This document shows positions 28,847-39,088 of a stretch of 62,612 bases of DNA, in pieces. The number at the start of each line of letters is the position of its first letter. The first letter of the stretch is position 1. The stretch comes from Streptomyces sp. NRRL WC-3742 (lineage in GTDB: Bacteria; Actinomycetota; Actinomycetes; Streptomycetales; Streptomycetaceae). The DNA lies in assembly GCF_000720635.1 (NCBI RefSeq), contig NZ_JOCF01000063.1, positions 1 to 62,612 of the forward strand, in the 5' to 3' direction. Below the pieces are notes generated by a model, which did no database searches, was not told the origin of the DNA, and worked only from the letters and a program-made list of their open reading frames with translations. The position numbers and the translations under genes were made by a program.

Positions 28847-29890
28847 TCAGGTCGGAATCGCAGGCAGGCTTGCGATCTGACTGCTCAGGGCCGAGATCCG
28901 CCGGTCGGCGCCGAACGGTTCGAGGCGCCCTTGAAGCTCCCTCAACTTGCGGCCGACGTACCCCGACCCGCTCTGCTGGGCAAGCAACAGGGCTTCACCG
29001 GCATACGACAGTAGGCGATCGCTGTCCTTCTGTTGAATCCCGAGTATGGCGAGATCAGTGAGAACGCTCCCCCTGCGGCGTGCCGAGAGCGGCTGGTCCA
29101 ATGCCTCGACCAGGGCTCCCTCCGCAAGATCGGGTCTCCCGAGCCGGGTGTAGCAGGTGCCCCGTTCCTCGGCCGGCCGAGAGCCGTCGAAGCGCAGCCA
29201 GCCGCCGTTGTGAACCTGTCCTGCCAGTGAGTGGACCTGACCTGCTAGATCCAGCGCCCTGTTGCACGAGTCGAGGTCTCCCAAGCCGGCGAACGCCTGG
29301 GCTTGAACGGCCGCCACCCAGTGGCGGGTCGAGAGCTCACGATTCCCGTGCCCGGCCAGCTCCGAAGCCGCCTTCAACATGGGCACCGTCGTGGCGAACC
29401 GCCTCTCGTACAGGCCGATGAAAGCGTGCCGGGCCAGGGCACACGCCCAGAGGTCATAGGCACTGGCCTCCCGAGCGGCGCTGACGGCGAGGGCATAGCA
29501 CTGCGCGGCATCGGTGTAGCGATTTCCGTCGAAGAAGATCTCGCCTGCCAGTTGCAGCAGATCCGCCGTTGTCTCGCAGAGCCGCCTGCGCTGAGTCTCG
29601 GTCGGAGCCCGCGAGACTGCGGATCCGGTTGGGGCGATGATCGCGATCTGCGGTTCACATGTCGCCGGAGCAGCACCGGTCGGGTGCAACTCCAGTAGAC
29701 CGTCGAGTTCCACAACAGAGAGTTTCAACAGCCTGGCGAGCCTGGGCCGGATGTGCGGCTGCGGCTCGGAGTCGCCACGCTCCCAACGGCTGACCGTGGA
29801 CCGGTCGACGTCGAGTGCTTCGGCGAACCCGTCCTGACTGCAGCCGAGTGCCTTCCGGCGCCGCGCCAGATGCGGCCTGGTGGCCTTCAT
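28847..29890 (-). CDS. XRE-family regulator with C-terminal TPR-like domain
   Basis: The product has 347 residues. The HTH is at about 5-60 (RRRKALGCSQDGFAEALDVD, then RSTVSRWERGDSEPQP). The rest is all-helical with TPR-like pairs. A short internal duplication, AGQVHS-LAGQVHN, lies near residue 235. ATG 29890 is chosen because GAAGGG lies about 10 bp upstream and the HTH begins there. Regulators of this architecture sit beside accessory metabolite genes in streptomycetes. It is divergent from the HATPase/radical-SAM operon with a palindrome between, so it most likely controls that operon and itself. Confidence 0.8.
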   Translation of the reverse strand: MKATRPHLARRRKALGCSQDGFAEALDVDRSTVSRWERGDSEPQPHIRPRLARLLKLSVVELDGLLELHPTGAAPATCEPQIAIIAPTGSAVSRAPTETQRRRLCETTADLLQLAGEIFFDGNRYTDAAQCYALAVSAAREASAYDLWACALARHAFIGLYERRFATTVPMLKAASELAGHGNRELSTRHWVAAVQAQAFAGLGDLDSCNRALDLAGQVHSLAGQVHNGGWLRFDGSRPAEERGTCYTRLGRPDLAEGALVEALDQPLSARRRGSVLTDLAILGIQQKDSDRLLSYAGEALLLAQQSGSGYVGRKLRELQGRLEPFGADRRISALSSQIASLPAIPT

Positions 29891-29937
29891 GCCACTGCCC
29901 TTCGCTCTGCTGATGCATTGATCCAGGTCAGAGCTCG

Positions 29938-29958
29938 TGGTGCATCGAGTATGCACCA
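29938..29958. promoter_or_regulatory. Palindromic XRE-type operator
   Basis: TGGTGCAT-CGAGT-ATGCACCA is a perfect 8-bp inverted repeat with a 5-bp spacer. It lies in the divergent region, 48 bp before the XRE start and 124 bp before the HATPase start. Further TGCA half-sites occur at 29914 and 29963. Confidence 0.6.
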
Positions 29959-30081: not shown

Positions 30082-30690
30082 ATGACTCCGCTGAACACCC
30101 CGACAGCGCCGGTGCTCTGCACCTTGGACATCGAAGCCGGTGTTGCCGCAGTACCCCCGGCCCGCCGTGAGGTCGGGCAGACCGTCCTGGCCTTGAACCT
30201 CCCTCTGTCGAACGAGGCGTTGGGAGACGTGGAGTTGTGTGTCGGTGAGTTGCTCGCCAACGCCGTCGAGCATGTCGGGGAGCGTTGCCGCGTCGTGGTT
30301 CGGTGGACCGGCGTTCGTGTGCGCGTGGAGGTCGCTGACGGGAGCCCGTTGCCGCCGACGCGAACCAGCGCCGACGATCTGGCCTCTGGTGGGCGCGGTC
30401 TCCTGCTCGTCGAGGCGCTGGCCCACTCCTGGGGCTGGTACCCGGAGGAGGGCGAGAAGGTGGTGTGGTGCGAAGTGGCGCCCGGGCAGGGCGATCAGCC
30501 CCGGTACGAGGTCCGGGTGATCGACTCCCGCAGCCCTCACTTTGTCCTCTTGGAGTGCTGGGGCATCTACGACCGTGAACGGCACGACTACCTGCGGGTT
30601 CCGGGTTCGTCGGACCGGATCAGGCGCTTCTACACGAAGGCCGCCGCCGCGGCCCATCTGAGCCGGGAGGTGGGGAAGTGCACGACCTGA
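30082..30690 (+). CDS. HATPase_c (anti-sigma/histidine-kinase-like) ATP-binding protein
   Basis: The product has 202 residues. An N-box is visible in ELLANAVEH (about 62-70), a G1-type VEVADGSPLPP (about 88) and G2-type SGGRGLLLVEALAHSWGW (about 104-121). These place it in the single-domain GHKL ATPases that streptomycetes carry in large numbers. The last 60 residues (from about PRYEVRVIDSRS) are extra and contain conserved-looking aromatic residues. ATG 30082 has GGAG upstream; GTG 30071 is an alternative in-frame start. It overlaps the next gene by 13 bp, so it is the first gene of the radical-SAM operon. Its job there is unknown. Confidence 0.78.
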   Translation: MTPLNTPTAPVLCTLDIEAGVAAVPPARREVGQTVLALNLPLSNEALGDVELCVGELLANAVEHVGERCRVVVRWTGVRVRVEVADGSPLPPTRTSADDLASGGRGLLLVEALAHSWGWYPEEGEKVVWCEVAPGQGDQPRYEVRVIDSRSPHFVLLECWGIYDRERHDYLRVPGSSDRIRRFYTKAAAAAHLSREVGKCTT

Positions 30691-30968
30691 TCGCGAGCCC
30701 CTTCCTCAACGGCTTCGTCGTCCTGCGGCCGGGCCGGTTGGAGGGCCTCACGTTGTCCGAGCGGCGGTTCCGGGATCTGGAACTCGCCCACGACTCGGGC
30801 GCCGACCTTCCGTTGTGGCTGGCGAGGGCCGTCCGCGCCCGCTGGGGTGTCGACCTGGTGATCCGGTCGGCGAGTGACGCCGTCCTGATCCGCGACGCCC
30901 CGCCGTACGGTCACGGCCGGGCGAGCTGGGAGATCAACCTGGGCTGCGACCTCGGCTGCATTCATTAG
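30678..30968 (+). pseudogene. Radical SAM maturase, N-terminal half (gene interrupted)
   Basis: GTG 30678 with GGGAGGTGG upstream starts a 96-codon frame: a roughly 80-residue N-terminal domain, then SWEINLGCDLGCIH, which is the beginning of the CxxxCxxC iron-sulfur motif. The frame stops right after the His, before the third Cys. The sequence expected next (CYL..., then GGE and SPASM) appears at 37280-38086. The two parts together give about 364 residues, the size of a SPASM-type RiPP maturase, with about 10-12 residues lost at the junction. Alone this half cannot bind the cluster. Confidence 0.82.
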
Positions 30969-31015
30969 GCAAATTGAGTGTCGGGTTCAAAGGTGTCGGC
31001 TTTGGACCCGTACCG

Positions 31016-32341
31016 TCAGCTCGCTTTGAGGCGGTCCATGAGGTCGGCGACGCCATCAACCTGGCGGTAGGGCTTGAACGCCGGAGCGAGCTCGCGTACC
31101 AAGGTGACGCACCGTTCGGCGCCGATCCGGGTCGCCAGGTCGAGCGACTGATTCGTGACAGCGAGGGCCTGTTCGACCTCGCGGGCCTGCAAGAGGCTAC
31201 GGGCCTCGTACGTCAGGAAGATCCCCCGCGTCTTGTCACGGGAACGCGGCAGCAGGCTCATGCCCTCGCCGATACGGGCGTGGGCCTCCTCGGTGCGGCC
31301 TAGGTCGAGCATGCACTGGCCGGAGTCGACAGCCAGGTCCGCCGTACTCATCCACCGGCACCAGGCCGGGGCGGGGTCGGGACTGTCGGTCAGCAGCGCG
31401 CTCTCGGCGGCGGCCAGGTCCCGGTGGCAGTCGGAGGCGGCGCCGAGGGCGGCGTGCGCGCGGGCCCGGCGGAGGTGAAGCAGGGAGCGGGCGGTGGGGT
31501 GCTGGGTGTGGATGAGAGCCTGGCTGAGCGGTTCGACGGCGGCGCCGGGTTGGGTGAGCCAGATCGACTGGTAGGCGAAGTCGGAGAGGACGCCGGCGTC
31601 GAAGTCGCGGTCGCGGGCGGCGTGCGCGTTGGTGAGGGCCGCGTTCCAGAGCTTGCCCGCCGCGAAGTGCTGGCCCTGGTCGAAGTGATGCCACCCGCAG
31701 GTGCTGGCCAGGGAGGCAGCGAGCAGGTGGAGTCGCCGGCCGACGGGTTCGGTGTAGCGGCCTTGTTCCAGCAGGTCGGTGACCGTGTCCAGCTGGGCGT
31801 CCATCAGCTTCGCGGTGTGCTGGCGCTGTTCGGTGGGCAGCGCGGTGAGCTTGGCGCAGGTGTCCTCTAGCCAGTCGACCAGTTCGGCATCGACGTGCTT
31901 GCCGCTCAGGGCGGCGGTGAGCCGGTCAGGTTCGAGGGCGGTCCACTGGGTGGAGAGCCCGGCCAGCGCGAGCGCGCTGAAGGTCATGAAGGTGCGTCGG
32001 CGGTGGTCCATAGCGGCTCTCTGTGCATCTCGAAGGGCGAGGACGGTGAACGCCGACCCGAGTGGAACGGGCTGTTCCTGCCCTGGCAGCCAGTGAGGCC
32101 ACTCGAAGGCTTCCAGGTCGGCGATCGGGACGTCGAAGGCTTCGGCGATCAGGAGTTGGGATTCGATGCTGGGCGTCTTGCGCCAGTTCTCCCACTTGCT
32201 GACGGCGGCCTTGTCGGTGCCGGAGCGAAGGCCCTCGGGCCGGTGCCGAGCGGCGTGGTGGATGCGGGCCGCGAGGTCGGTCTGGGACCAGCCGCGAAGC
32301 GCGCGGGCGTACGCGAGGGGGTGCCGGATCTGGTCGTCCAC
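31016..32341 (-). CDS. XRE-family regulator with TPR-like domain (cargo regulator)
   Basis: The product has 441 residues. The HTH part reads LAYARALRGWSQTDLAARIH and KAAVSKWENWRKTPSIES (about 8-70). A segment FMTFSALALAGLS (about 120) and long TPR-like helical repeats follow to the end. This architecture is the same as the regulator at 28847 but sequence is clearly different. GTG 32341 is the only reasonable start; its ribosome site is weak. It is divergent from the oxidoreductase operon, with a repeated GGTGACCGTGAG motif between, so it probably controls that operon. Confidence 0.78.
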   Translation of the reverse strand: MDDQIRHPLAYARALRGWSQTDLAARIHHAARHRPEGLRSGTDKAAVSKWENWRKTPSIESQLLIAEAFDVPIADLEAFEWPHWLPGQEQPVPLGSAFTVLALRDAQRAAMDHRRRTFMTFSALALAGLSTQWTALEPDRLTAALSGKHVDAELVDWLEDTCAKLTALPTEQRQHTAKLMDAQLDTVTDLLEQGRYTEPVGRRLHLLAASLASTCGWHHFDQGQHFAAGKLWNAALTNAHAARDRDFDAGVLSDFAYQSIWLTQPGAAVEPLSQALIHTQHPTARSLLHLRRARAHAALGAASDCHRDLAAAESALLTDSPDPAPAWCRWMSTADLAVDSGQCMLDLGRTEEAHARIGEGMSLLPRSRDKTRGIFLTYEARSLLQAREVEQALAVTNQSLDLATRIGAERCVTLVRELAPAFKPYRQVDGVADLMDRLKAS

Positions 32342-32362
32342 GGGGCCAATCCCATCATCGAC

Positions 32363-32438
32363 GGTGACCGTGAGCCTACTGCGCGTACGGGCGGGACTAC
32401 CCCGGGACTACGGACAACGCCTGGTTGGTGACCGTGAG
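32363..32438. promoter_or_regulatory. Repeated GGTGACCGTGAG motif in the divergent region
   Basis: The 12-mer occurs at 32363-32374 and 32427-32438, 64 bp apart. The first copy contains the perfect palindrome ACGGT-G-ACCGT (32361-32371). The pair is the best candidate operator for the XRE regulator at 31016 and for the metabolic operon starting at 32497. Confidence 0.5.
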
Positions 32439-32496
32439 TTGGGCTCTACTCGTCGTGCACCGACAAGTTTCGTCACCAAGCGGAAGGAGTCCGCGC

Positions 32497-33489
32497 ATGA
32501 AACGACGAGCTGCGGTTATCGGCCTCGGCCACCAGGCGCTCGAAGACCACCTGCCCGGCCTGCTCGCCTCCAGCAAGGCCGAGCTCGTCGCCGTCTGCGA
32601 CAGCAACCCCGACACCCTGCGCGAGCGACAAGACCGGCTCCAGGTCCCGGGATTCACCCGCGCCGGTGAGCTGCTGGACGCCGTGAAGCCGGACTTCGTG
32701 GTCGTCGCCGTCCCGCATCACGCCGGTCGGGAGGTCGTCCAGGAGTGCGCCGACCGGGGCGTTCACGTCCTCAAGGAGAAGCCCTTCGCCACCAGCGTGC
32801 AGGAGGCCCGGGACCTCGTCCAGGTCTGCCAGGCTGGGCGGGTCGAGCTGATGGTCACCCTCCAGCGGCGGTTCAACCCGATCTATGCCAGCGTCGCCGG
32901 GCTGCTGGACCAGATCGGCACACCGTTCCTGATCGACGGTCAGTACACCTTCCACACCGACGACCCCGGTGGCGGCTGGCGCGGGGACGTCCGGCAGGCC
33001 GGGGGCGGCTGCATCATCGACATGGGCTACCACCTGATCGACCTGCTGCTGTGGTACTTCGGCCTGCCCAGCCGGGTCATCGCGGAGTTCTCCACCACCG
33101 CCGTCCCCGGCGGCGGGTACGACGCGGAGGACACCGCCGTCATCCAGCTCGGCTACGGCAGCGACCTGTACGGCTCGGTGCTGTTGTCCAGGTGGGTGGC
33201 CCCGAAGACTGAGCGACTGCATGTGGTCGGCACCCGAGGCTCGGTGCTGCTGACCAAGGGCCAGGTCCAGCGCCTTGACCTGGGCGGCACGGTCGTGGAG
33301 GAGCTGACCCGCCCGCACGCCCCGGCCTCGGCGTCGGCCGCGCAGATCGACTACTTCTGCCGGGTTCTGGACGGCGAGAGGCCCAACACCTCCGGACCGG
33401 AGCAGCACCTCGCGCACGCCGCGTTCATCGCCTCCTGCTACCGGTCCAAGGCAGCGGGGCGCTACATCGACCCGAAGGAGATGCTGTGA
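32497..33489 (+). CDS. Gfo/Idh/MocA-family NAD(P)-dependent oxidoreductase
   Basis: The product has 330 residues. The Rossmann part starts AAVIGLGHQALEDHLPGLL. The family motif EKPFA (in VHVLKEKPFATS, about residue 93) holds the catalytic Lys, and GGGCIIDMGYHLIDLLLWYFG (about 168-188) is the His-containing C-terminal signature. Such enzymes oxidise a hydroxyl on sugars, sugar phosphates or inositols. ATG 32497 has AAGGAG 8 bp upstream. The stop overlaps the aminotransferase start by 4 bp. With the aminotransferase it would turn a hydroxyl into an amine via a ketone (inference). Confidence 0.87.
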   Translation: MKRRAAVIGLGHQALEDHLPGLLASSKAELVAVCDSNPDTLRERQDRLQVPGFTRAGELLDAVKPDFVVVAVPHHAGREVVQECADRGVHVLKEKPFATSVQEARDLVQVCQAGRVELMVTLQRRFNPIYASVAGLLDQIGTPFLIDGQYTFHTDDPGGGWRGDVRQAGGGCIIDMGYHLIDLLLWYFGLPSRVIAEFSTTAVPGGGYDAEDTAVIQLGYGSDLYGSVLLSRWVAPKTERLHVVGTRGSVLLTKGQVQRLDLGGTVVEELTRPHAPASASAAQIDYFCRVLDGERPNTSGPEQHLAHAAFIASCYRSKAAGRYIDPKEML

Positions 33490-34739
33490 CCAGCCCTCTC
33501 GCCCTGCTCGGCGGCAAGCCCGCCGTCACCGCCACTGGCCCGCACTTCAGCTGGCCGCCGATCGACGACACCACCCGCGCCAAGGTCGCCGCCCAGCTGG
33601 AGGAGTCGATCTCCATCCCCGGCCGGTCCGGCATCGTCGCCGAGCTGGAGGACGGACTGCAGGAGTACTTCGGCGTCCGTCACGCGGTCACCACCAGCTC
33701 CGGCACGGCCGCTCTGCACGCCACCTACTGGGCCGCGAGGATCAAGCCCGGCGACGAGGTGATCGTCCCGGCTTGGACCTTTCACGCCACCGCCTCCCCG
33801 CTGTTCCATCTCCGTGCGGTGCCGGTGCTCTGCGAGACCGGGCCGGACGGCAACATCGACCCGAACGGGGTCGAGGAGCTGATCACCCCGCGCACCCGCG
33901 CGATCATGGTCACCCACCTGTGGGGCAAGCCCGCCGACATGACTGACATCGTCGCCGTGGCGAACGCGCACGACCTTCTCGTACTGGAGGACGGCTCCCA
34001 CGCCCACGGCGCCAGCATCGCGGGGCAGAAGGTCGGCACCTTCGGCCTGGCCTCGGCGTTCTCCCTCAACGGACCCAAGCCGCTGTCCGGCGGCGAGGGC
34101 GGGTTCGTCCTTACGGACGACGACGACACCTACCACCGGGTCATCACGCTCGCGCACTACAACAAGCGGGCCAAGTCGGAGATCCCGGAAGGCCATCCGC
34201 TCGCGCGGTACGCGGTCACCGGGGCCGGCCTCAAGCTCCGCATCCACCCGCTCGCCGCCGCCATCGCCCACGACCAGCTCACCCGCCTCGACGGCTACCT
34301 CGCCGGACGGGCGGAGATCGCCCGCTACCTCACCGGTGCACTCGCCGGGGTACCCGGCCTGGAGGTCACCAGCATGCCCGAAGGGGTGGTCCCGTCCTGG
34401 TACGGGTTGACGCTCACCTACCGGCCGGACGAGCTCGGCGGGCTGCCGATCGAGCGGTTCCACCAGGCGCTGGTCGCCGAGGGCGCCACCGAGTTCGACC
34501 GCCCGGGCTCCACCTGCCCGCTCAACCAATTCCCGCTGTACCAGCACCCCGGACCGTTGTTCCCGGGGCACCCGCACTCCCACCGCCGTTACACGAGCGG
34601 TGACTTCCCGGTCGCGGAGCAGGCTCACGCGCACACGATCAAGCTCCCGGTCTGGCATCGTGAACAGGATCTCGAACTGGCCGAGCAGTACGTCCGCGCG
34701 GCCATCAAGATCAGCGACCATCACAAGGAGCTTCTGTGA
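33486..34739 (+). CDS. DegT/DnrJ/EryC1/StrS-family PLP aminotransferase
   Basis: The product has 417 residues. Cofactor motifs are TSSGTAALHATYWAARIKPGDEV (phosphate binding, about 68), VIVPAWTFHATA, LEDGSHAHGA (PLP-pairing Asp, about 168) and SAFSLNGPKPLSGGEGG with the expected Schiff-base Lys (about 199). Family members aminate keto-sugars or keto-inositols with Glu or Gln as donor. GTG 33486 overlaps the previous stop; its own stop overlaps the Nudix start, so all three genes are translationally coupled. The pair oxidoreductase plus aminotransferase resembles NtdC/NtdA (kanosamine) or inosamine enzymes, but the substrate is unproven. Confidence 0.9.
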   Translation: MTSPLALLGGKPAVTATGPHFSWPPIDDTTRAKVAAQLEESISIPGRSGIVAELEDGLQEYFGVRHAVTTSSGTAALHATYWAARIKPGDEVIVPAWTFHATASPLFHLRAVPVLCETGPDGNIDPNGVEELITPRTRAIMVTHLWGKPADMTDIVAVANAHDLLVLEDGSHAHGASIAGQKVGTFGLASAFSLNGPKPLSGGEGGFVLTDDDDTYHRVITLAHYNKRAKSEIPEGHPLARYAVTGAGLKLRIHPLAAAIAHDQLTRLDGYLAGRAEIARYLTGALAGVPGLEVTSMPEGVVPSWYGLTLTYRPDELGGLPIERFHQALVAEGATEFDRPGSTCPLNQFPLYQHPGPLFPGHPHSHRRYTSGDFPVAEQAHAHTIKLPVWHREQDLELAEQYVRAAIKISDHHKELL

Positions 34740-35170
34740 CCGTCACCTCCCCCGAGTTCGTGGCTGGCCTGGCGGCCGACGCTGAAGCCGCCGGCATCAC
34801 CGGCTTCGTCGCGGCCGCCGTGATCAACCACGACGGCCGGGTCCTGCTCGTACGGCGCAACCCCGACGACTACATGGGCGGGATGTGGGAGATCCCCTCC
34901 GGAACGGTCGAGACCGGGGAGACGATCCTGGACGCAATGTACCGGGAGACCGCCGAGGAGACCGGCCTGACCGTCGACCAGGTCAGCGGCTACATCGGGC
35001 ACTTCGACTACCAGAACAGCCGCGGTGGCACGACCCGCCAGTTCAACTTCGCGGTCACCGTGGAGAAGACCGAACCGGTCGTCCTCACCGAACACGACGC
35101 CCACCAGTGGGCACTCCCCGGCGAGCTGCCCGAGGTCAGCGACGCGGTCCGCAAGCTGATCGCCCGTTGA
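34736..35170 (+). CDS. Nudix hydrolase
   Basis: The product has 144 residues. The Nudix box reads GTVETGE-TILDAMY-RETAEETGL, complete for GX5EX7REUXEEXGU (about 60-82). It hydrolyses nucleoside diphosphates linked to another group. Placed third in a coupled operon, it could release a sugar phosphate from a nucleotide sugar or clean up a product (inference). GTG 34736 overlaps the aminotransferase stop by 4 bp. The last third is antisense to the over-long end of the coiled-coil gene. A perfect hairpin 10 bp after the stop ends the operon. Confidence 0.88.
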   Translation: MTVTSPEFVAGLAADAEAAGITGFVAAAVINHDGRVLLVRRNPDDYMGGMWEIPSGTVETGETILDAMYRETAEETGLTVDQVSGYIGHFDYQNSRGGTTRQFNFAVTVEKTEPVVLTEHDAHQWALPGELPEVSDAVRKLIAR

Positions 35171-35649
35171 GGTGGTGAGAGTGTGGCGGGGGCCTCGGAT
35201 TCCCCCAGGCCCCCGCCACACCATGGTCGAGATGACCTGCTGCGGCTCAAGGGGGTAACTGCCGATGCGCTGCCGAGCTCCTGCTTTGCCTGGTCCAACT
35301 CCAGCGACAGCTCTACGGCGATCTTCGTCAGGACCTTGCTCTTCTCACGTTCGATAGCTAGGTCTGCCTTGAGGGCCTTGATCTCCTCCTTCAGGAGCCT
35401 GTTCTGCTCGTGGACCTTCTCCACAGCGGCAGGTGCCGAGCTCTGTGCCTTCACCCGGGCCTGGAACTCGTGCACGAGGTCCTTGTGATCGCCGTAGACC
35501 ACATCGCGGCGAAGCCCCGACTCGGTGATCAGCTCCGATCCGGTGAGCTTGCCGCTGGCCGACCGCAGCGGTGTACCCGCCAGCAGCCGTTCTGCGGCAG
35601 CCTGGAGCGCCGCCCGCTCGGCTTCGCGATCGCGGGGCTTGCGGGTCAT
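35008..35649 (-). CDS. Integrase-associated coiled-coil/HTH protein (TnpC-like), over-long C-terminus
   Basis: ATG 35649 overlaps the integrase stop by 4 bp. Residues 1-75 look like a small HTH module (SASGKLTGSELITESGLRRD, DVVYGDHKDLVHEF). A coiled coil follows at about 85-135. Proteins of this layout partner large tyrosine recombinases in Tn554-like and related modules. The normal length is about 140 residues, ending shortly after VTPL. Here the frame runs on for some 75 more codons, antisense through the Nudix gene, to a stop at 35008. The change coincides with the 16-bp repeat, so the native stop was probably lost in a rearrangement. Confidence 0.6.
   Translation of the reverse strand: MTRKPRDREAERAALQAAAERLLAGTPLRSASGKLTGSELITESGLRRDVVYGDHKDLVHEFQARVKAQSSAPAAVEKVHEQNRLLKEEIKALKADLAIEREKSKVLTKIAVELSLELDQAKQELGSASAVTPLSRSRSSRPWCGGGLGESEAPATLSPPQRAISLRTASLTSGSSPGSAHWWASCSVRTTGSVFSTVTAKLNWRVVPPRLFW
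35181..35221 (+). terminator. Perfect 15-bp hairpin after the Nudix operon
   Basis: GTGTGGCGGGGGCCT (35181-35195) pairs perfectly with 35207-35221 across an 11-base loop. It lies 10 bp after the Nudix stop and immediately before the 16-bp direct repeat copy. Confidence 0.88.
35222..35237 (+). repeat. 16-bp exact direct repeat, copy 1
   Basis: CATGGTCGAGATGACC occurs here and again, same orientation, at 38094-38109, where it forms codons near the start of the candidate precursor peptide. This copy is followed by TGCTGCGGCTCAAGG, unlike the second. It marks the left edge of integrase-module DNA and may be a leftover attachment site or a fragment of a second precursor start. Confidence 0.55.
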
Positions 35650-37280
35650 TCGCTGTTCTCCCTGGTGGTAGCGGTGCCTACGTGCCGGTGCAGGACCTTG
35701 CGGACCTGAACAGCCTGGGCTTTGGCGCGATCCCGAAGCGGATGAGGGGCGAGTGGGTCGGCAACCGCCGCCTCCAACGCAGAGAGCCTTTCCTGTAGTT
35801 GGGCGACATCGCGGTCGGTGTACGCGAGGTTTTGGCAGGTCGACTGGCACTCGGCCTCGATCGGTGCGTCACCGACCGGCAGCCCCTGGGCGATCCGGGC
35901 GTTGCGGCATGCAACTGTCTCCGCCTGCCAGACACAGGTCATGCCGTCGCCATGGTGGATGCTGGGGTCGACCTGGGAGACCAGCCGCTCGACGTTGCGG
36001 ACGCGGTTGACGACACGACCGGCGAACCGGTGGGCACGCGCCACCCTCGACCTGTATTCCGGAGCTGCCGGGCCGCTGATTCGTTCGCCCTGCTCCAGGA
36101 GCGACCAGTCCCGCTCGCTCTGCTCAACGATCAACTCCAGCCGCTCGACGGCCACGTCCTCCAGCCAGGAGGCGTTCGCCTGCCCCGCGTAGCTCAAGGT
36201 GACCTTGGTTGAGACGTGTGCGTACTGAAGTGCTGCCGCGATCAGGCCGCGGGGCCTGCGGACGATGAAGTAGGCCAAAGTCCGTCTGAACCTGGACGGG
36301 TGGATGTTGCGGGTCGGGTCGGCCGGGACGACCGGCTGACCGTCGGAAGCTGCTGTTCAGCCAGCCGATGAACTTGTCCAGGTCACGGGTCATATATCGG
36401 GCGACACGGGCATGCTCATGGGCGGGTCGGCGTGCGTGGGCGGACACGAGGCTGGAAGGAAAGAGGAACGGGGAGTCGGACAGCGATTCGAGTATGGCGA
36501 TGGCGTCGTGGACCGGTTGCACGACGACCCACGAGCGGCCCCACTCGTCCTCGCCCGCGCTCGGGCGGGGAGATCGCCCGGCCCCCTTGCCGTGACGGCC
36601 GTCAACGAAGAGCTGTCCAGTGGTCTCGTCGCGTCGTCGGCAGCCGCGTCTGAGGTTGAGCGCCTCGCCCGGCCGCATGCCGGAGAGGTAGCTGATCACC
36701 ACGAAACAGGCGGCGGCCAGGTGCGAGACCAGCTCGGGAAGCTCCTTGACCGTGATGGGATGCTCGCGCCAGGCGTGCCCGTCGATGAGGCCGCAAACTT
36801 CCCCCAGGAATGAGCCTCGGGCGATCGGGAGGCCGCTGTCCACGACTGTCTGGCGCACCTTCGGCTGTGAGGTGGTCAGCTTCATGCCAAGGAGTCGGGA
36901 GAGATGACGCCAATTCAGCTGATACGTGCCGTCGTCGGCTTGTATCCCCGGAAGAGCGGCTCCCTCGGCTTCGGCGCGGGCGAGGAGATCTCCACGCGCT
37001 GGCGGACGGGCAGTCCGTGGAAGTCTGCCTGGCGAGGGTGGGTCTTCGCTTCGAGCTGTTGGAACTCGTGTTGGGCAGCGACGATGTCCGGACCGATGTC
37101 CTCGATCATCCGCAGGCTCCAGGCCAGCAGGGCCTCCATCGTGGCGGGGGCGATCCGGGGAGTCTTGTTCTCCCGGCCGGGGGCAGGCGTCTGGGCGAGT
37201 TGGTGCATGCTCGCCCCATCCCAGAGGCTGTCGGTCGACAGCCGGCACTCGGGCGGCAGGTGCACCTGGTAGTCCCACAT
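35646..37280 (-). pseudogene. Large tyrosine site-specific integrase, truncated and frameshifted
   Basis: Three frame segments make one protein: 37280 to about 36990 (VHLPPECRLSTDSLW... ENKTPRIAP), about 36990 to 36355 (DLLARAEAEGAALPG... SGMRPGEALNLRRG, catalytic Arg I) and about 36355 to 35646 (NIHPSRFRRTLAYF with His-x-x-Arg, then the Tyr in STKVTLSYAG and a Cys-containing tail). A missing G in GTGGAG-GATCTC and a second one-base slip explain the breaks. Full-length relatives (TnpB-like) carry roughly 200 more N-terminal residues, absent here because the gene begins at the radical SAM junction. The enzyme is almost certainly inactive. Confidence 0.78.
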
Positions 37281-38086
37281 GGCTGGACGAGAAGGGCAAG
37301 CGCCGCCTGCTGCGCACCCTGCGGGACGCCGGAGTGCTGTGGCTCCAGGTCACGGGCGGCGAGGCCCTGATCGATCCCCACTTCGCCGCCTCGTGCCGGC
37401 TCGCGCACGACCTCGGGATGATGATCGAGGTCCTCACCAACGGCACCCGTCTGTCGAACCCCGCCACCTTGGCGGCCCTGGCTGCGTGCAGGCCGTACAG
37501 GGTCACCGTCTCCCTCTACGGCGCGACCCCGGAGACGTACGACGCGTTCACCCGTCGCCGAGGCGCCTTCGCGCGGGTCACCCGGGGGCTGGCCGCCGGC
37601 GTCGAGGCCGGTCTGCCCCTGCGACTGGCGCTGATCGTCACCGCGCAGAACGCCCACGAGCACGACCGGATGCGCGAGTTGGCCAACGGGCTCGGGCTGC
37701 CGTTCAAGGAGTACACCCACATGTCGCCGACGATCTACGGCGGCGCCGAGTCCCTCGCCTCCCAGTCCCCGGCCCACCTGAAACCCCTCGAACGCTTCAC
37801 GGGCTGCAACGCGGGACACACCTTCCTCCACGTCGACCCGCACGGACGGGCCTCGATCTGCAAGGTCGGCCGCGACGAACAGATCGACGTCCTGGCCGAA
37901 GGCGTCCAGGGTCTCGCCCGGCTCGGCACGATCGCCGACCGCCTCATGCTTCGCACCGGTGGCTGCTCCGGCTGCCTGCTCTCCGAGAACTGCTCGGTGT
38001 GCAGGCCACTGGCCAAGCGGTACCAGGAGGCGAAGGCACCACTGAACACCTACTGCCAACACGGCCGGAAAGGAACCACAGGATGA
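37280..38086 (+). pseudogene. Radical SAM/SPASM maturase, C-terminal half
   Basis: From WLDEKGKRRLLRTLRDAG the frame carries the rest of a radical SAM protein (about 268 residues): VTGGEAL (SAM-binding GGE), VSLYGATPETYDAFTRR, then SPASM Cys: CNAGHTFLHVDPHGRASIC (CX12GX4C), CSGCLLSENCSVC and a last Cys in NTYCQH. It lacks the start and the first iron-sulfur motif, found at 30678-30968. No good start codon or ribosome site exists at its beginning. SPASM enzymes crosslink peptides. The stop overlaps the precursor start by 4 bp. Confidence 0.83.
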
Positions 38087-38217
38087 CCGCTGTCATGGTC
38101 GAGATGACCACCACCCGCACGAAGAGCGACGACGACGAGATCAGGTTCGTCGACGACATGGAGGACTTCGGGGCCGACGCCCTCCCCGGATGCAGCGACG
38201 ACAACCCGTACCGGTAG
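38083..38217 (+). CDS. Candidate RiPP precursor peptide (44 aa)
   Basis: ATG 38083 overlaps the maturase stop (ATGA) with AAGGA 8 bp upstream, so it is translationally coupled. The 44-residue product starts MTAVMVEMTTTRTK, has an acidic middle (DDDEIRFVDDMEDFG) and ends ADALPGCSDDNPYR. A short acidic peptide with one Cys and one Tyr in its tail beside a SPASM radical SAM gene is the standard layout of a RiPP precursor. The core is likely the last 10-14 residues. Function and product are unknown. Because the maturase is broken, the peptide is now probably unmodified. Confidence 0.7.
   Translation: MTAVMVEMTTTRTKSDDDEIRFVDDMEDFGADALPGCSDDNPYR
38094..38109 (+). repeat. 16-bp exact direct repeat, copy 2
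   Basis: CATGGTCGAGATGACC lies within codons 4-9 of the candidate precursor. It matches 35222-35237 exactly; see that entry. Confidence 0.55.
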
Positions 38218-38284: not shown

Positions 38285-39088
38285 GTGACCACCACGCGCA
38301 TCCACTGGGCGGATCTGCCCGCAGCCGTGCACCAGGCTGTTTCTGTACGGCTTGGAGGTCCGATTCTTCGGGCGGAGACGGTCTCGGCCGGGTTCAACTC
38401 CGAGATCGCCGTCAGGCTCGCCACCGAAGAGGGCAGCGTCTTCGTCAAGGGCATGCGGCTCAGCCACCCGCGTGTGTGGACACAGCAGCGCGAGGCGGAG
38501 ATCAACCCGTCCCTGCACGGCCTCGCGCCGACGGTGCTGTGGCACATGGAAGTCGAAGGATGGAGCCTGCTCGCGTTCGAGCACATCCGGGCCCGGCACG
38601 CCGACTACAAAGCGGTCGGGGACCTGGAGTCGATGGTTGACGTGCTGACCCGGCTCGGCCGTGTCCCGTGCCCCCGGATCGAACTCCGTCAGGCGGAGCA
38701 GCGATGGGCTGCGTATGTGGACGAGCCGCAGTCGGCGGCCCGGTTCGCGGGCGATGCGCTGCTGCACACGGACCTGAACAGCGAAAACGTGCTGGTTCAG
38801 GGAGAACGGACGGTTCTGGTGGACTGGGCGTGGGCCACGCGCGGCGCGGCCTGGATCGACCCGGCTCTCTGGGTGATCTGGCTGATCGCCGCGGGCGGCC
38901 ACAGCCCGGCTTCGGCGGAGGGCTGGGCTGCCAGGATTCCCGCCTGGAGTCTCGGCGATCCTGCACTGCTGGACGTCTTCGCGAAGGCTCAGGCCCGCAT
39001 GTGGGCCGACATCGCGGGGAGCGAGCCGGACGCGTGGACGGCCGGGCTGAGCAGGGCGGCTCAGCGGTGGGCCCGCTTCCGAGGGTGA
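38285..39088 (+). CDS. APH-family phosphotransferase
   Basis: The product has 267 residues. The catalytic loop HTDLNSENVLV (about 163-173; HxDxxxxN) and metal-binding DWAWAT (about 181) match aminoglycoside/choline-kinase-like enzymes. The N-lobe has AGFNSEIAVRLATEEGSVFVKG with the probable ATP-binding Lys. GTG 38285 gives VTTTRIHWADLP. The family phosphorylates hydroxyls of small molecules. It may act on a RiPP or cargo-pathway product, or be unrelated; a terminator separates it from the precursor. It is convergent with panB across a shared hairpin. Confidence 0.83.
   Translation: MTTTRIHWADLPAAVHQAVSVRLGGPILRAETVSAGFNSEIAVRLATEEGSVFVKGMRLSHPRVWTQQREAEINPSLHGLAPTVLWHMEVEGWSLLAFEHIRARHADYKAVGDLESMVDVLTRLGRVPCPRIELRQAEQRWAAYVDEPQSAARFAGDALLHTDLNSENVLVQGERTVLVDWAWATRGAAWIDPALWVIWLIAAGGHSPASAEGWAARIPAWSLGDPALLDVFAKAQARMWADIAGSEPDAWTAGLSRAAQRWARFRG

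Follow-up and report, generated by a model that had tools for sequence, protein, structure and literature searches.

A decayed tyrosine-recombinase element splits a radical SAM maturase gene inside its iron-sulfur motif in Streptomyces sp. NRRL WC-3742

Site-specific mobile elements are known that insert into tRNA genes, into particular genes or at gene ends. The present analysis concerns a 62,612-nucleotide stretch of DNA from Streptomyces sp. NRRL WC-3742 (contig NZ_JOCF01000063.1; the whole stretch is called the window), in which a 6.3-kb insert divides the gene of a radical S-adenosylmethionine (rSAM) maturase inside its iron-sulfur (Fe-S) motif. The insert is a decayed member of a family of four-gene tyrosine-recombinase elements with biosynthetic cargo, of which a complete representative is found in Streptomyces adelaidensis CAP261 (locus L104). 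The closest described systems are the strand-biased circularizing integrative elements (SEs), which leave no empty site and whose synteny block that study found only in Gammaproteobacteria (PMC10214605). The SE gene order intA-tfp-intB-srap, i.e., catalytic recombinase, non-catalytic recombinase-fold protein, large catalytic recombinase and small auxiliary protein, is matched by L104, the likeness being one of order and description, and both kinds of element have imperfect inverted ends, a 6-bp footprint and distal cargo (PMC10214605). The members described here, however, reside in Actinomycetota, where they occupy codons for the active sites of several enzyme families; since all 41 records of relatives carry actinobacterial names, we file the family as SE-like, not as SE.

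GInts, as far as the available part of PMC5385486 describes them, likewise combine three recombinase-type genes with a small TnpC-like protein and variable cargo, and resemble the present elements in a 6-nt staggered exchange, imperfect flanking repeats and one recombinase lacking the first Arg. The degenerate protein is, however, the third in GInts (GinC) and the second here, and the gene order differs from ginA-ginB-ginC-ginD. GInts occur in many bacterial groups, the main text containing neither 'Actinobacteria' nor 'Streptomyces', and the sites it gives are ssb gene ends, 5' or 3' ends of genes and intergenic positions, none of them named inside a catalytic motif (PMC5385486). Tn554 and the actinobacterial Tn554-like transposons share with the present family a long and an ordinary tyrosine recombinase, a TnpC-like partner and the site specificity of Tn554, but they have two recombinases, the shorter of ~350 amino acids, in place of three recombinase-type genes, and the accessible text of PMC3414803 describes no active-site targets for them. 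RIT elements also contain three adjacent recombinase genes, and some interrupt genes such as radC; in the archetype, however, the recombinases measure 315-410 amino acids and all possess the catalytic Tyr, and no fourth gene or cargo is described in the portions of the two sources at hand (PMC3414803, PMC10214605). Actinomycete integrative and conjugative elements use mostly tRNA sites (PMC3218068). A literature search, with subscription journals largely outside its reach, returned no report of rSAM or Nudix genes that contain such an element, of active-site targeting, or of SE-like elements in Actinobacteria; actinobacterial Tn554-like transposons have been reported.

The rSAM maturase frame at 30678-30968 (+) ends in GCDLGC-IH-stop, after the second Cys of the CxxxCxxC motif. 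The last codon of the gene's own sequence is the Cys codon at 30957-30959, which gives an N-terminal part at 30678..30959; the 'IH stop' (30960-30968) is contributed by TTCATTAG, the end of the element, together with the 6 bp that precede it. A sequence-only reading of the window had placed the break after GCDLGCIH and the resumption at 37280 with a Trp: the split stands, whereas the IH is foreign to the gene, and the resumption moves to 37283, the W codon (37280-37282) being part of the insert. The C-terminal part (37283..38086, +) has a Cys-rich end and overlaps a 44-codon peptide gene by 4 bp; both halves, their order, their strand and this overlap are all present as that reading had described them.

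The two halves were once a single gene of ~373 codons, as had been proposed. The homologue set consisted of the best 120 of 1237 matches to an intact relative, and each half was searched separately: both halves match, in order, in 119 of these 120 proteins, the sole exception being the window's own fragment. Among 99 homologues with an alignment that extends to the junction, 98 have a gap of 12 residues between the half-matches and one has a gap of 14, a further 20 homologues being left out as not countable. The halves consequently do not abut; 12 codons (36 bp) are gone, the third motif Cys among them. The window C-half is 85-89% identical to four close homologues (P0001, P0002, P0003 and P0007), comparable with the 84-88% identity of these four to the intact-relative query. 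At a threshold of at least 80% identity, an orthologue is present in 7/70 genomes of the genus, i.e., four intact copies (L004-L007), in which the insertion site is empty, the split copy of the window, and copies in genomes G044 (L008) and G069 (L018). Intact relatives also occur under the names Kitasatospora and Streptomyces, in agreement with the expectation that they should exist elsewhere. In L008, an in-frame deletion at ~1491-1500 takes out the whole CxxxCxxC (EINLG-MLLVLRDAG), so that the motif has been lost a second way in the genus, and the L018 orthologue (G069:C4:254335-255131) lies in two overlapping frames, probably owing to a frameshift. The window's genome contains no other close copy of the maturase, the next rSAM matches being 38% and 31% identical.

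The interruption is bounded by a defined terminus. The left end TTCATTAGGCAA..TGTCGG also follows this Cys codon immediately in three further rSAM genes, in genome G045, in S. adelaidensis and in genome G714. In the window, the left terminus TTCATTAGGCAAATTGAGTGTCGG occupies 30961..30984 (+), supplies an in-frame TAG stop and adjoins the 6-bp overlap or footprint GCTGCA (30955..30960), where the intact orthologue L004 has ACTGCG; the Gly of GCDLGC, which is Asp in the four intact orthologues, is consistent with such a footprint (ACTGCG to GCTGCA). A mobile element with a defined terminus, which the sequence-only reading overlooked, is the cause of the interruption, and it did not come to lie inside the Fe-S motif by accident: the same end stands at this codon in the three further rSAM genes and also within active-site motifs elsewhere.

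In G045, the same cargo and the same left end follow ...QPTTFCNLNC, the start of another rSAM family with intact members in G028 and G008 (L166 and L168; Pfam was run on L166), and G045 also retains an intact orthologue of the window maturase (L005). The G045 copy (L070, 9331-9880) stops inside tnpC and is joined to an apparent GNAT acetyltransferase fragment; the GNAT gene is also present whole at 2158-2826, and the rSAM C-half was not seen beside this copy. In L104 (recombinase C-terminus 75% identical), the left end lies behind ...ELNKGCNFSC. This element is complete at 7.25 kb, comprising cargo (dienelactone-hydrolase-like by reading of the sequence), TnpC, Rec3, Rec2, Rec1 and the right end AGCCTAGAGAA, after which CRMCYLALRKF... 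of the same rSAM gene follows. The flanking halves overlap by one residue in all 118 countable homologues (one was left out), and hence no target sequence has been lost. An in-frame ATG is located 8 bases after GAGAA at the right border of L104, from which the target C-half might be translated. In G714, ...TERCNLDC precedes the element and C-VHCF... follows it, and both ends are present, with the recombinases interrupted in places.

The core order in L104 is Rec1-Rec2-Rec3-TnpC, and the recombinase-type genes of the family encode ~550, 600-660 and 700 amino acids. By our own motif assignment, Rec1 has an intact RHRHY set (R247, H432, R435, H482 and Y492, invariant in 11 sequences), Rec2 has TGQN or TAEN at the presumed first-Arg position in 11/11 rows, and Rec3 keeps R365, H521 and Y530 in 11 sequences. 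The ends are imperfect inverted repeats, TTCATTAGGC..TGTCGG against TTCTCTAGGC or TTCTTTAGGC..TGTCG, in 8/8 two-ended elements. The 6-bp flanks are identical in seven of these eight and also in L177 and L181; they differ in L104, L159 and L182, as expected for carry-over.

Of the four core genes, the window copy keeps only TnpC and a remnant of Rec3. Behind the left end lies a cargo of an NsdA-family regulator (31016..32341, -; NF053720, 1.3e-94), a Gfo/Idh oxidoreductase (32497..33489, +; PF01408, 1e-21), a DegT/DnrJ/EryC1 aminotransferase (33486..34739, +; PF01041, 3.4e-73) and a Nudix hydrolase (34736..35170, +; PF00293, 3.1e-19). The frame of the TnpC/Srap-like small protein (35008..35649, -) continues beyond the stop position of its relatives. 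The Rec3 remnant (35646..37280, -) is N-terminally truncated, beginning at residue 177 of the L104 frame, and changes frame near 36950 and 36330; one frame contains the presumed catalytic Arg, the other what we take to be the HxxR motif and the Tyr. At the deletion junction (37282..37283), the maturase gene lacks 36 bp and the element lacks its right end, Rec1, Rec2 and the beginning of Rec3; judged by comparison with L104, ~4 kb would be missing from the right end of the element in addition to the 36 bp. The cargo block (31016-35170) was fetched, at 4.1-4.3 kb and 77-91% identity, from 13 other genomes of the family; the element end is present in only one of these blocks (G045) and absent from 12, and the flanks fetched with the 13 blocks showed no similarity to recombinases.

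Insertion at catalytic motifs extends to other enzyme families. The exact pattern TTCATTAGGCAAN{3,9}TGTCGG occurs at 12 places in 11/394 genomes of the family and at 5 places in 4/394 genomes of the class (3 already counted), with no match to the reversed control in either case. Among 22 distinct left ends, 4 lie in rSAM motifs, 12 in Nudix boxes (mostly ..LPG|G), 3 in a Nudix-related ..HFLA|GH, 1 in a staphylococcal nuclease (SNase) motif (RVRLLGI|DAPE) and 1 in an aminoglycoside phosphotransferase (APH)-like loop (IHGDLQ), and 1 (L148) has no assigned motif, which places 21/22 inside catalytic motifs by motif reading. The Nudix and APH labels of L110, L114, L147, L151, L152, L153, L155, L156, L157, L178, L179 and L180 are by motif reading. 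All but one of the 22 (L114) read into TAG in the frame used, the frame of L148 being tied to no target. In the targets that were tested with Pfam, each of the three families (Nudix, SNase and rSAM) has one fixed insertion column: the C-halves begin at PF00293 column 35 in 8/8 Nudix, at PF00565 column 7 in 4/4 SNase and at PF04055 column 11 in 2/2 rSAM cases. The N-halves of L107, L110, L112 and L156 contain no domain known to Pfam, and for L151 the sole match is a methyltransferase domain located upstream in the open frame.

The 41 recombinase loci were retrieved with five aligned relatives, whereas close-relative scans with the window Rec3 C-terminus alone gave no match. The insertions of G089, G075 and G151 fall in the Nudix box and that of G199 in a Nudix-type AGH site; L086-L089, which have no rSAM motif nearby, were dropped as evidence against rSAM targeting once Nudix sites had been found. 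Among the distant relatives L121-L140, targets were read for L133 and L137, both in the gene of NAD-dependent DNA ligase (ligA) at the start of the OB-fold region, by Pfam for L133 and by motif for L137. Rec1 matches were found in 140 plasmid records, of which the six best were opened. Among these six, L182 ([Kitasatospora] papulosa, NZ_CP108282.1 123178-148698) splits a phosphotransferase across the HGD loop, both target halves being APH by Pfam and annotated phosphotransferase; two further plasmid copies are APH-like and one is Nudix, by motif at the right ends only. L177 (NZ_CP058639.1) has an exonuclease-like AYNAxFD motif by reading, in a reading phase different from that of the other targets, and L181, the last of the six, has no assigned motif. 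By genus tally, the 140 records include, as distant Rec1 matches, Sphingobium (16) and Agrobacterium (15), also Rhizobium and Sinorhizobium, and the element family may reach beyond Actinomycetota; no alphaproteobacterial record is among the 40 plasmid rows listed.

In the Rec3 tree (28 rows), the window, represented by a 223-residue C-terminal piece only, joins L104 weakly (81/60), and window, L104 and G714 fall in one clade with SNase targeters (98/97), which does not include the Nudix targeters. The choice of target tracks the phylogeny of the recombinases: the five labels can be placed on this tree with 4 changes, against a shuffled mean of 10.9 and with 0/200 shuffles as low, a figure to which near-copies contribute. 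The rSAM label taken alone is not clustered beyond chance (58/500 shuffles as low). When rSAM and Nudix half-sites were compared against the positions of the 62.6-kb window alone as background, the four rSAM arms ranked in the top 0.4-2.6% with a matrix of 10 bp and in the top 0.1-5.2% with one of 12 bp. One AGH arm reached the top 0.5% and the APH arm the top 1.4% at 10 bp; the ranks of two AGH arms and of the SNase arm were unremarkable. These ranks give a faint hint that the Nudix half-site resembles the rSAM half-site.

We consider it very probable that an integrative element of the SE/GInt/Tn554 type entered the CxxxCxxC DNA of the maturase gene behind the second Cys codon and later decayed. 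The gene is split, four rSAM genes have the terminus at the identical codon, and the L104 element preserves its target. In the mechanism we propose, the recombinases would recognise active-site motif DNA as attB and exchange strands across the 6-bp overlap, and TTCATTAG would contribute the stop, by which the maturase would be dead; a later deletion of ~4 kb, together with the 36 bp of target, would have taken the right end with Rec1, Rec2 and the first part of Rec3, and would have frozen the cargo in place.

Several points weigh against this explanation. The mobility of the elements is predicted from their sequences. The original insertion in the window, where the right end is missing, is deduced from relatives, and there are only four rSAM cases, two of which, the window and G045, carry the same cargo and are each missing the right end. 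Rec1-Rec3 are assigned as putative recombinases by motifs and gene order: Rec2 and Rec3 of L104 gave neither a Pfam or NCBIfam match nor a solid match to a solved structure, and the Rec1 profile gave none of the latter either, though Rec1 has weak integrase-domain matches. Furthermore, the ends of L148 and L181 have no assigned motif, L177 uses another reading phase, and a shorter pattern with one mismatch allowed matched 4/70 genomes of the genus, including G021, with 1 match to the reversed control.

The decayed state of the window copy, its missing right end and the loss of 36 bp of the gene would also fit a random insertion or rearrangement that fell by chance in the Fe-S motif, the recombinase remnant being incidental; however, the terminus recurs at the identical codon in three more rSAM genes and insertions occupy a fixed column in Nudix and SNase genes, which leaves chance very unlikely. 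Developmental elements that interrupt sporulation genes reconstitute the gene on excision, and a programmed element of this kind, restoring the maturase gene at some stage, would accord with the open frames of both halves, with a C-half as similar to its homologues as these are to one of their own intact kin, and with the full target kept in L104. It is nonetheless slightly less likely still, since the window lacks Rec1, Rec2 and the right end, has a broken Rec3 and has lost 12 codons including a cluster Cys, so that excision cannot restore the gene; moreover, described SEs leave no empty site (PMC10214605). Least likely of all is that two genes of different rSAM families were brought together, for although the halves lie 6.3 kb apart and each is open, 119 of the best 120 homologues hold both in order. 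All three alternatives are rejected on the evidence cited against each.

Beyond the single locus that we attribute to element insertion, it seems likely that a large SE-like family, best seen in Actinomycetota, integrates at active-site motif DNA (the rSAM Fe-S motif, Nudix box, SNase DAPE, APH HGD loop, ligA and possibly an exonuclease), that its lineages switch between enzyme superfamilies, as exemplified by the clade with rSAM and SNase targeters, and that the element end is built to stop the target in frame. If so, landing on catalytic-motif codons, which are conserved among paralogues and between species, would account for the supply of sites in so many genomes, split rSAM, Nudix and kinase genes could be predicted, recombinases with new natural targets would become available, and radical SAM genes would be ever-present entry points for biosynthetic cargo that moves horizontally. 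For the mining of ribosomally synthesized and post-translationally modified peptides (RiPPs), the caution follows that 'truncated' rSAM genes may be element insertions.

The interrupted gene belongs to a broad actinobacterial rSAM family, and its C-half and two intact relatives score too low to pass the cut-off of the listed NCBIfam models. The intact relatives have a PF04055 domain, CxxxCxxC, a Cys-rich C-terminus and a conserved peptide gene alongside, and it is plausible that the operon encodes a RiPP pathway in which the maturase would modify the adjacent peptide; the literature search, with the coverage given above, found no paper on this RiPP type. In the window, an XRE/TPR regulator (28847..29956, -; HTH_3 and an NsdA-family TPR region) is divergent from the maturase operon, a HATPase gene (30082..30690, +; PF13581, 1.5e-12; start codon of our choice) overlaps the maturase start, and the candidate precursor gene (38083..38217, +; 44 codons, C-terminus CSDDNPYR) is followed by a kinase-like gene (38285..39088, +), APH-like by reading and with weak matches only to kinase models. 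A comparison of neighbourhoods, as suggested in the sequence-only reading, agrees with this arrangement: the HATPase lies upstream in 5/6 close orthologous loci (not found in L007), the kinase lies downstream in all six and is a neighbour in L104 as well, and a small gene ending in CSDDNPYR, CNAGDDNPF or similar follows the maturase in 14 of the 18 loci examined, two of the 14 peptides being identical and no DDNP-type small gene being found in the other four. The strain of the window keeps the regulator, HATPase, peptide and kinase genes, alongside a maturase without its cluster motif.

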